Origin: Desulfobacterales bacterium
GTDB lineage: Bacteria > Desulfobacterota > DSM-4660 > Desulfatiglandales > Desulfatiglandaceae
Assembly (NCBI GenBank): GCA_014382905.1
Contig: JACNIU010000166.1
Span: forward strand, 1,877-41,473
Direction of reading: 5' to 3'
Length of the DNA stretch: 39,597 nucleotides
Shown: positions 21,478 to 24,857 of the stretch, piece by piece
How the letters are laid out: each line of letters starts with the position of its first letter
How positions within the stretch are numbered: position 1 is the stretch's first letter
Position numbers and translations under genes: made by a program
The notes under the pieces: generated by a model
The model's input: the letters and a program-made list of their open reading frames with translations, nothing else
Database searches by the model: none
Told to the model about the DNA's origin: nothing

Positions 21478-21543
21478 ATAAGCCTCCCTTTTTAAATTCT
21501 TGTATCCGTTTAGTGTTTTGAAAACGGTTATGATTAGATTGCC

Positions 21544-21766
21544 GGACCATGAGGGTCTCTTTCCCAAAGGACGTAACAAAAATTCTCAACAGGCGGTAGA
21601 ACGCCCCCTTGACGTTGAATACAGGTTCCGGGCAGGCAGGGGATGTGTCCGTTTAAATGGATACTTTCTCCTGGGGCTGTCCTGTGACAAATATCAAGGC
21701 CTCACTGCCGTTCCTATGAAATGAGGGCCTTATTTACGTCCTTTGGGAAAGAGACCCTCATGGTCC
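21544..21766. mobile_element. MITE-like element, copy 1 (33-bp perfect terminal inverted repeats)
   Basis: The 33-bp ends (21544-21576 and 21734-21766), beginning GGACCATGAGGGTCTC and ending AAAGGACGTAA, are perfectly inverted. The interior of about 157 bp shows no plausible protein. The same element, in opposite orientation, lies at 24585-24808, with interior identity about 80% by eye. It lies 66 nt upstream of the TIGR04076 start and 39 nt past the glycosyltransferase stop. No direct target repeat is evident. A GTTTTGAAAAC / GTTTCAAAC pair sits outside the ends, so the true border may be wider. Confidence 0.85.
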
Positions 21767-21804
21767 TTAGCTTTGTTTCAAACCGCGAAAGTGTTACAAA
21801 TGCT

Positions 21805-22752
21805 TTAACTTTTTTTAACAGGGCTCTCAATAGATGTAAAGGCCTTCTTTATAAAATGCCTTGAAGCCTTAAGTGTACTCCCAAGCAGTTCATGGTCTGC
21901 TTCTTTGCTTTGAATCACACGTACGAAGGGCCCCAGCGGTGCCCATTGAGCCGGATCGCTTTCCCTGAAAAGTGCAACCGTGGGGGTGCAGAACATGGCG
22001 GACAGGTGTGTTATACCGCTGTCGTGGCCCACGCATAAGGCGGCCTTATTGAGTGTCTCCATGAGCTGTTCCTTGTTCGGAGAAGAGAGGATCTGCACGT
22101 CACCAGGGCGAAGGTTATCTCTAAAATATGGATGAAGTCGTTCTTCAGCCGGCCCCAAAAGAATTACAGGTTCCAGATCTCTGAATTCGGTTTCCCGGCA
22201 AATGGTGTCAAACAGATTCAGCCAGAAGTCTGGAGGATGGTTCTTTTCTAAAGAGCCTGATCCCGGGTGGAATATGATCTTGCTCCTCTTCCCTGATCGC
22301 CCCAGTCCTTCCTTCAAACGACCGCTTCTTATAGTCTCGATCGACCTGACAGGATCAACAGGGAGCCCGGCAGATTTCAGGCAGCGTCCCAGGTACTGGG
22401 CCACATGGATATCCTCACCCTTGAGTGGAAAGGACCGGCACAGATGAACAGAGGCGTAGGGCATATAAGATCGCAGGTTACGATAAATGACGCCGCTTTC
22501 ATCACTGAAAAACGCCACTACAACCTCTGCGCCCGACACAGGCAGACGCTTATCGTCCGGCTCATCTGCAAACAATCTGTGCCATCCGGAGGTCTCTAAA
22601 TCCATCGCCTCATGCACATAAGGCCGGATAAATTCGAGGCCAGGCTGCCTCCCCACAAAGGTGATGGCGGCCTTGTCAGAGAGGTCTGAGAGCGCCGGGA
22701 GCAACATAAGGGTGTCTCCCAGGGCGCCGGGCCTGATGATAAGGACGTCCAA
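21805..22752 (-). CDS. Glycosyltransferase family 9 (heptosyltransferase-like)
   Basis: A 315-residue GT-B enzyme of the ADP-heptose:LPS heptosyltransferase family. The N-terminus IIRPGALGDTLMLLPAL, the central IIFHPGSGSLEKNHPP sugar-nucleotide site and the C-terminal CVGHDSGITHLSAMFCTPTVALF are diagnostic. It acts at the cytoplasmic face of the inner membrane in LPS core or glycan assembly; acceptor unknown. The start is TTG, 5 nt after AGGAGG that follows the cupin stop. It is co-transcribed with the cupin gene. Confidence 0.9.
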   Translation of the reverse strand: MDVLIIRPGALGDTLMLLPALSDLSDKAAITFVGRQPGLEFIRPYVHEAMDLETSGWHRLFADEPDDKRLPVSGAEVVVAFFSDESGVIYRNLRSYMPYASVHLCRSFPLKGEDIHVAQYLGRCLKSAGLPVDPVRSIETIRSGRLKEGLGRSGKRSKIIFHPGSGSLEKNHPPDFWLNLFDTICRETEFRDLEPVILLGPAEERLHPYFRDNLRPGDVQILSSPNKEQLMETLNKAALCVGHDSGITHLSAMFCTPTVALFRESDPAQWAPLGPFVRVIQSKEADHELLGSTLKASRHFIKKAFTSIESPVKKS

Positions 22753-23250: not shown

Positions 23251-24561
23251 ATGGAAAAGGGCAAGCTGGATCCCCGTCTGAGACTCATACAACAAGCCCC
23301 CATGAAAGGAAAGGTCGTCCTGTTAAGGGTGGATCATAATGTGGTTAAGAAAGGCCAGATTAAAGACCCTTACCGGATTGATGCCACTATAGGCACCCTT
23401 TACGCCATTGCCGCACAAGGGGGGAAGCCTGTCCTGATGACCCATATTGGGAGGCCTAAAGACAAGAAAACCGGAAAGATCGTATGCCGCGAGGACCAGT
23501 CGGTAATCCCCATTGTTCGGTATCTGGAACAGAAGCTGCCCGTCACCATACATGTCCAAGGGTTCCCCATAGATCCTGAAAAGGGGATCATCCATACAGA
23601 CAAATCCATCGGGCCGGCCATTGAAGCGCTGCGAGAGGGGAAGATCGACATGATCTACCTGCCCAATTCACGCTGGTTCCAGGGTGAGCAATCAAAGGGG
23701 CCGGAGAGACAGGATCTGGCGGACGAACTCGGGTCCATTGCGGACATTTATGTCAATGATGCATTCGGTTCCTGGCGCGCCCATGCATCAACTTACGATA
23801 TTTCTCACAGGCTACCCTCCTACGCCGGGATCCTTCTCCAGAAGGAGTTAATGAATCTCCACAGGGTGCTTGAACCTGAAAGGCCATTTATTGCGGTGGT
23901 TGCCGGGGCGAAATACGATACCAAAATCGGCCCGTTAAAGGCCCTTTACAAGAAGGTGGATCACCTGATTTTAGGAGGGCTGATGTATAACACCTTTCTT
24001 TCTGCCAAGTATGGGGCAGAAATTGCCGGCGTCTCAGAGGAAGACAGGGCCCTTGCAATGGAACTTGTAGAATTGGACAGAGACGAGAAAAAGATCCTGG
24101 AAATGCCCTATTTTGTGGAATCGGAGAGGACAGAAGAGAAGGCTGAAGGGCAATATCGAACCATAGGAATCGAAAACCTGAAAGAGCGAGGGAAAATCAA
24201 ATATATCCTCGATATAGATCCCGCGTCTTTTCAGGAACAGAGGGTTGTAGATGCCATCACGACTGCCAGGACCATTTTTGTGAATGCGGTCATGGGACTT
24301 ATGCCCCTCTTTTTTGAGGGTTCCCAGGCCCTGTATCGTCTGATTGCTGAGAATGAAGCTGCGTCCAAGCTTTTTGCCGGCGGAGATACCCTTCAGGAAC
24401 TCCGGAACCTCTGCCCGGGGATCTACATGGCGGGCCTCGACGACCCTGCCACCTACTACTTCACCGGCGGGGGGAGTGTACTTGCGGCCATAGAAGAGGG
24501 AACCCCGTATCACCTCAAACCGGTTGAGGCATTGATGAATGGTATCACTTTAGCTTGTTGA
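23251..24561 (+). CDS. pgk: Divergent phosphoglycerate kinase
   Basis: Catalyses 1,3-bisphosphoglycerate + ADP to 3-phosphoglycerate + ATP. The fold is recognisable but altered: RVDHNV (canonical RVDFNVP) at 26-31, THIGRP (SHLGRP) at 64-69, LPNSRWFQGE (LENVRFxxGE), YVNDAFGSWRAHAS (DAFGTAHRAHAS), VAGAKYDTKIGPL (GGAKVSDKI), VNAVMGLMPLFFEGS (WNGPMGVFE) and FTGGGSVLAAIEEG. Length 436 exceeds the usual ~390-400, with an insertion around 280-315. The bracketed forms are recalled from ordinary bacterial PGKs. GGAGG precedes the ATG. No ordinary pgk is next to gap/tpi here, so this may be the working enzyme or a paralogue. Confidence 0.87.
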   Translation: MEKGKLDPRLRLIQQAPMKGKVVLLRVDHNVVKKGQIKDPYRIDATIGTLYAIAAQGGKPVLMTHIGRPKDKKTGKIVCREDQSVIPIVRYLEQKLPVTIHVQGFPIDPEKGIIHTDKSIGPAIEALREGKIDMIYLPNSRWFQGEQSKGPERQDLADELGSIADIYVNDAFGSWRAHASTYDISHRLPSYAGILLQKELMNLHRVLEPERPFIAVVAGAKYDTKIGPLKALYKKVDHLILGGLMYNTFLSAKYGAEIAGVSEEDRALAMELVELDRDEKKILEMPYFVESERTEEKAEGQYRTIGIENLKERGKIKYILDIDPASFQEQRVVDAITTARTIFVNAVMGLMPLFFEGSQALYRLIAENEAASKLFAGGDTLQELRNLCPGIYMAGLDDPATYYFTGGGSVLAAIEEGTPYHLKPVEALMNGITLAC

Positions 24562-24584
24562 AACAATCATTCGTTTGTTGTCTG

Positions 24585-24808
24585 GGGCCATGAGGGTCTC
24601 TTTCCCAAAGGACGTAAATACGGGGATCGTTTCATAGGAACGGCAGCGAGGCCTTGAAATTCGTCACTGGACAGGCCCCAGAAAAAGGTATTCATTTAAA
24701 CGGACATCGCCGCTGCCTGCCCAGGAACGGTATTGAACGTCAAGGGGGCGTTCTATACGCTCCGGAAAAATTTCGTTACGTCCTTTGGGAAAGAGACCCT
24801 CATGGCCC
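24585..24808. mobile_element. MITE-like element, copy 2, inverted relative to copy 1
   Basis: The 33-bp perfect ends are 24585-24617 and 24776-24808. Reverse-complemented, its interior aligns with copy 1 from AGAACGCCCCCTTGACGTT through GTCCGTTTAAATG to CTGCCGTTCCTATGAAA. The ends differ from copy 1 at one position on both sides, GGGCC...GGCCC instead of GGACC...GGTCC, so pairing is kept. It lies 23 nt after the pgk stop and 49 nt before the formyltransferase start. Confidence 0.85.
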
Positions 24809-24857
24809 TACGCTTTGTCTCAAACGGCTAATCTGTTACCATGAGTGAGGATTCGGC

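Follow-up and report, generated by a model that had tools for sequence, protein, structure and literature searches.

A conserved hairpin core in a likely IS66-type MITE: arms kept complementary and a probably selected fold

The window, by which we mean the whole 39,597-nucleotide stretch of DNA that was analyzed, carries two copies of a long hairpin, each with arms of 33 nt that are 100% complementary. The arms of copy 1 lie at positions 21544–21576 (GGACCATGAGGGTCTCTTTCCCAAAGGACGTAA) and 21734–21766, with 157 nt between them, and those of copy 2 lie at 24585–24617 and 24776–24808, with 158 nt between them; the core of copy 2 (24585–24808, GGGCC...GGCCC, with its interior read on the minus strand) has the reverse orientation of copy 1, whose arms and interior are read on the plus strand. 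The window contains four occurrences of a 24-nt word from the arms, where shuffles predict 0.00, and the core has a folding energy of −119.4 kcal/mol (z = −10.8). At the third arm base, A21546 pairs with T21764 in copy 1 and G24587 pairs with C24806 in copy 2. This swap, in which each copy keeps its own partner, had been reported in a first-pass annotation along with outer words on the flanks of both copies, and swap and words alike are present as described.

The outer words (GTTTTGAAAAC at 21515–21525 and GTTTCAAAC at 21775–21783 for copy 1; GTTGAAAC at about 24557–24564 and GTCTCAAAC at about 24817–24825 for copy 2) are segments of the terminal inverted repeats of a larger element, so that the span originally annotated covers the core of that element only. 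Element 1 extends from 21502 to 21797 and consists of a left terminal region of type b (21502–21543, plus strand, beginning GTATCCGTTTAGTGTTTTGAAAACGG and including GTTTTGAAAAC, as established by comparing the flanks of the copies), the hairpin core with its interior at 21577–21733 (motifs S1 GAACGCCCC, S2 CAGGCAG, S3 GGGGCTGT, and S4 CTGCCGTTC), and a right terminal region of type A (21767–21797, beginning GTAACACTTTCGCGGTTTGAAACAAAGC on the minus strand and including GTTTCAAAC). It is bordered by target-site duplications, AAATTCTT at 21494–21501 and AAATGCTT at 21798–21805, that match at 7 of 8 positions. Element 2 (24542–24839) is built likewise, with a type-B end on the plus strand (24542–24584, GTATCACTTTAGCTTGTTGAAACAATCATTCG...), the core, and a type-A end on the minus strand (24809–24839, GTAACAGATTAGCCGTTTGAGACAAAGC), and its duplications, GATGAATG at 24534–24541 and CATGAGTG at 24840–24847, match at 6 of 8 positions. 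The open frame of a phosphoglycerate kinase (23251–24561) terminates within element 2, at 24542–24561, so that its final few codons and its stop seem to come from the insertion.

The genome to which the window belongs (G000), a metagenome-assembled genome of 4.56 Mb in 500 contigs (97.9% complete, 7.7% contamination), yields 137 matches to the arm word, against none for a reversed-pattern control, and 66 matches to the interior, and the element family numbers about 65 copies. Its 39 complete elements are 294 to 329 bp long (typically about 297 bp), and comparison of flanks recovers the ends common to the copies, GTAACACTTTAGCGGTTTGAAACAAAGC (type A) and GTATCACTTTAGCGTTTTGAAACAATCATTCG (type B, or its variant b), with terminal inverted repeats of GTAAC/GTATC and GTAWCACTTTAGCG... 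at either end of complete copies. An 8-bp direct duplication borders these 39 elements, with an identity of 82% versus 33% for shuffled pairs, and no other length gives a comparable signal. Having terminal inverted repeats, a target-site duplication of fixed length, many copies, no transposase gene, and a length below about 600 bp, the hairpin element conforms to a MITE, a nonautonomous DNA transposon, and in view of the similar or near-identical ends of complete IS66-family insertion sequences in relatives it is best read as one of the IS66 type. All 30 copies whose genomic setting was checked lie between genes or at gene ends, and the only open frame among them that spans a core has just 90 codons. 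Elements of about 70 to 90 bp also occur, with intact ends and with arm remnants that differ from one to the next; these are best read as deletions of the palindrome, at least some of which were still transposed afterwards. We also considered the core as a separate mobile element nested in the MITE and dropped this view, there being no duplication directly beside the arms, and the differing remnants in the short elements being what deletions would leave.

The hallmarks of the IS66 family are GTAAGCG-type ends of 20 to 30 bp and 8-bp repeats (PMC11946415), and the elements of the source genome have the GTAA-type ends and 8-bp duplication expected of an IS66-derived MITE. Complete insertion sequences that have a single ORF with a DDE_Tnp_IS66 match, and GTAAC/GTAAG ends, are present in genomes G003 (L304; ends GTAACAGTTTAGTCC, duplication GTCAGTCC on both sides), G019 (L305; ends GTAACAGTTTAGT, duplication CATAACGA), and G069 (L306; ends GTAAGTTCTCAAAAAGTTCGGGTA, flanks without a match); when compared with MITE ends (GTAACTTCTCAAAAAGTCCGGGTG), the ends of the G069 element are nearly identical to those of the MITEs in G003, G024, and G031. 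GTAAC-type elements of other genera are also bordered by 8-bp duplications, which are perfect in L240, L241, L243, and L244 (8/8) and near perfect in L239, L242, and L247 (7/8). A search of the source genome found no autonomous IS66 element whose ends match these exactly, the sole IS66 transposase gene of that genome (PF03050, contig C209) has no matching ends nearby, and a PF03050 search gave zero matches in the hairpin-rich genomes G008 and G020, so that the mover in the source genome is a predicted one. Under this prediction, IS66-family transposases acting in trans would recognize the GTAAC/GTATC ends of the MITE of about 297 bp, mobilize it, and leave an 8-bp duplication of the target. 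The likeness to IS66 insertion sequences and the MITEs derived from them thus extends to GTAA-type repeats, an 8-bp duplication, a geneless body, tens of copies, and the similar or near-identical ends of complete elements in related genera; the difference is the conserved foldback core of about 200 nt, which was looked for inside complete IS66 elements and is absent there, and which in another genus sits on non-IS66 ends. Next to the transposase gene on contig C209 (L213, 1707–2642) lies an additional frame of 311 aa.

Across 47 copies in the source genome, 1,518 of 1,551 arm cells (97.9%) are Watson-Crick pairs, and the remaining 33 include 13 of the G·U type and 9 of the A·C type, numbers similar enough that the arms bear no RNA-strand signature in this genome. 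When arm changes are placed on a tree built from the core interiors, about 27 paired double changes are counted versus 32 one-sided, pair-breaking changes; these counts are approximate, in that each copy contributes only about 157 nt to the tree, which is also open to distortion by recombination among the copies. The earlier claim that the arms are kept complementary holds genome-wide, and one-sided changes are about as numerous as paired ones. The paired replacements include transversions seen in a single copy, such as G-C in place of C-G at pair 4, which are awkward for stepwise selection on an RNA but natural for copying from arm to arm. The orientation of the core relative to its flanks is about equally divided (21 versus 25 copies), the core flips about 15 times on the tree, and two pairs of copies in opposite orientation have identical interiors.

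Polymerase template switching between the arms of inverted repeats has been reported both to homogenize arms and to invert the spacer (PMC8604942). The likeness lies in arms made identical and a spacer inverted between fixed flanks, although the reported system concerns short repeats inside yeast genes, whereas here 33-bp arms enclose a spacer of about 157 nt in a mobile element. Since template switching produces both homogenized arms and flipped cores, the A-T/G-C swap alone is no proof of a working RNA, and it is best explained by DNA-level homogenization in an IS66-type MITE. During replication, one arm would template the other, by template switching or by arm-to-arm conversion, so that a new base is copied into both arms and the spacer is occasionally inverted, and transposition would then disseminate the corrected versions.

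A covariance model of the core was built from six genomes. Among 85 genomes of the order, it detects the core in 26, which represent 16 genera and two families and often contain tens of copies. A phylum-wide search with the model found the core in 5 of 395 genomes, all of the same family, with few candidates per genome and stricter filters that make absence elsewhere weak evidence; phage and plasmid records searched for the core gave no match. Between genera, the arm sequences differ widely and complementarity is retained: the outer arms are 94.7% paired, compared with 24 to 40% when one arm is slid, an upper estimate in that the 61 copies of this set were kept for forming at least 25 of the 31 pairs, and both-sides changes occur at all 31 pairs. 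Nor is the core tied to one kind of end, as the copies of genome G023 have it on ends TCGACCTGTGCGGTTA with a duplication of about 6 bp (L215–L227), which means that IS66 is not the only mover, and those of G013 and G069 have it on ends near AATTCTAATTATGA. Passive filler should not survive on different ends, and the core therefore probably confers some benefit on the element or has a reader of some kind.

The interior of the core contains four motifs at a fixed spacing of about 25/33/25 nt (S1 GAACGCCCC, S2 ACAGGCAG, S3 GGGGCTGT, and S4 CTGCCGTTC), of which S1 is able to pair with S3 (helix a) and S4 (H1), and S2 with S4 (helix b/b') and S3 (H2). Helix b/b' covaries as GGCAG/CTGCC, GGCGG/CCGCC, and GGCAC/GTGCC, with all three types found within genome G003 alone. 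Among copies outside the bulk G000/G023 set, its last two pairs are formed in 44 of 44 (100%) versus 76% after shuffling, the observed value being reached in 0 of 1,000 shuffles, and in a larger set b/b' is 96.1% paired, versus 12 to 35% when slid; decayed copies of the helix exist, mainly in G082. Template switching is unlikely to explain the covariation of b/b', a helix of only 5 bp in surroundings of much lower complementarity. Variation in helix a (GCCCC/GGGGC) is close to nil, its one compensated copy being L270 (GCTCC/GGAGC), and H1 (AAC/GTT) and H2 (ACA/TGT) are paired in about half of the copies, with some compensated types. From a first cross-genus alignment, RNAalifold recovered just the outer stem and, weakly, helix a/a', and that analysis was replaced by these motif-anchored counts. 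In the proposed scheme, zero unpaired bases separate neighboring helices, and such crosswise pairing would correspond, as a hypothesis, to a four-way junction made from a single strand. The covariance model also gives reverse-strand matches, the motifs being laid out almost identically on the two strands, such that either strand could form the fold.

The reading that we favor, and hold to be likely, is that the hairpin is the core of an IS66-type MITE whose arms are homogenized mainly by a DNA process and whose core is an old module with a selected fold. The fold of the core is probably under selection, the evidence being the covarying interior pair b/b' and the constant spacing of the motifs, and not the arm swap. 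The module of about 200 nt would consist of a long, variable outer stem and four motifs that pair crosswise in a single strand. The step that the first-pass annotation took from the arms to a working cruciform or RNA hairpin was accordingly half right: one-sided changes that about equal the paired ones, balanced G·U and A·C cells, and the core flips all weaken it as drawn from the arms, whereas its view that the element is more than a relic gains from complementarity that persists over 16 genera, and the comparison across genera points to a selected fold.

A functional RNA is a possible but doubtful account of what is selected. The core would be transcribed, from a host gene or by read-through, and would fold into a long stem whose head is pseudoknotted and resembles a four-way junction, the transposon being its vehicle; candidate roles include a small RNA, an mRNA stabilizer or processing signal, and a novel ribozyme. 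The location of copies between genes, the fixed motif spacing, and the presence of one core on differing transposon ends accord with this account, as does the covariation of the outer stem and b/b' across genera. That covariation extends beyond the long arms to the three compensated types of b/b', although a DNA structure predicts the same. Across genera, the outer stem has a slight excess of G·U over A·C (33 versus 18), a weak signal from nonindependent copies, and it stands against the balance of the two in the source genome. Also against an RNA are the occurrence of the core both ways round between the transposon ends, the motif layout that is nearly equal on both strands, and the 17 tandem settings, of which 12 have the core opposed to the genes in direction and 5 have it codirectional, so that no strand is clearly favored. 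A search of Rfam with the core, at gathering and permissive thresholds, matched no family, and neither did one with 14 related loci at E values up to 0.5; the core shares with the structured RNAs of Rfam 15 a conserved fold, covariation, and fixed spacing.

Equally tentative is a signal in DNA, in which the dyad-symmetric motifs would be putative protein-binding sites or would form a cruciform, favoring transposition or the survival of the palindrome; a transposase (at an accessory site), a recombinase, or a replication or repair factor are candidate readers. The near symmetry of the motifs on both strands at 25/33/25, the arms without strand signature in the source genome, and the free inversion of the core are as this account would have it. 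Against it, the core is carried by ends of two or more kinds and hence is not bound to one transposase. A plain relic, that is, an old MITE in neutral decay with arms alike merely because the copies are recent, is highly improbable, for although one-sided arm changes and internal deletions are present, some 27 paired double changes fall at variable arm positions, arms that differ widely between genera are still complementary, and the interior pair b/b' covaries.

More speculatively, and with less than even weight in our judgment, the core of the MITE could represent a kind of structured nucleic acid not described before, perhaps RNA, in which a long stem that evolves freely closes a fully paired four-way-junction pseudoknot, and which has spread through a Desulfobacterota-type order on at least two kinds of transposon ends and acts alike from either strand. 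We found no description of such an element in the literature on this bacterial group. An integron attC site, suggested by the AAC...GTT boxes, was rejected on spacing.

Foldback or long-hairpin bacterial MITEs and REP/BIME, Correia, and ERIC-like repeats are short, intergenic, palindromic, and high in copy number, as is the present element. It differs from all of these in its four motifs at fixed spacing and its covarying crosswise helix, maintained over 16 genera with differing arms, and we know of no sequence match between them and the element. Hairpins borne on transposons are usually dismissed as junk, and their symmetry is not thought to call for an explanation. The present family separates two questions, how perfect long palindromes are kept up and why unrelated transposon ends carry one fold in 16 genera, and homogenization and flipping can be read directly from its approximately 65 copies. 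If the fold works as an RNA or as a DNA signal, it would constitute an uncatalogued class, represented in uncultured sediment bacteria by tens of copies in each genome.

Several copies depart from the usual architecture. Cores of 255 nt, about 32 nt above the usual length, occur twice in L142 (251–506 and 1195–1450) and also in L136, L161, and L195; the extra stretch, which was read in L142 only, is itself palindromic (CGGCCTCCGGCTCGTAGAGCCTACGCCTCGGAGAG) and may represent a second family of small repeats that has inserted into the core. In L171, L176, L178, L192, and L200, the B end beside the core is interrupted by a further repeat of about 100 bp (CAGGCCTGCCCGCCTATGCCTTTCGCCGTGCATTGCCGGTTCAACCCTTCAGG...). 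In genome G070 (L248), a second, partial core-like sequence lies directly downstream of the first, which suggests tandem or nested copies.
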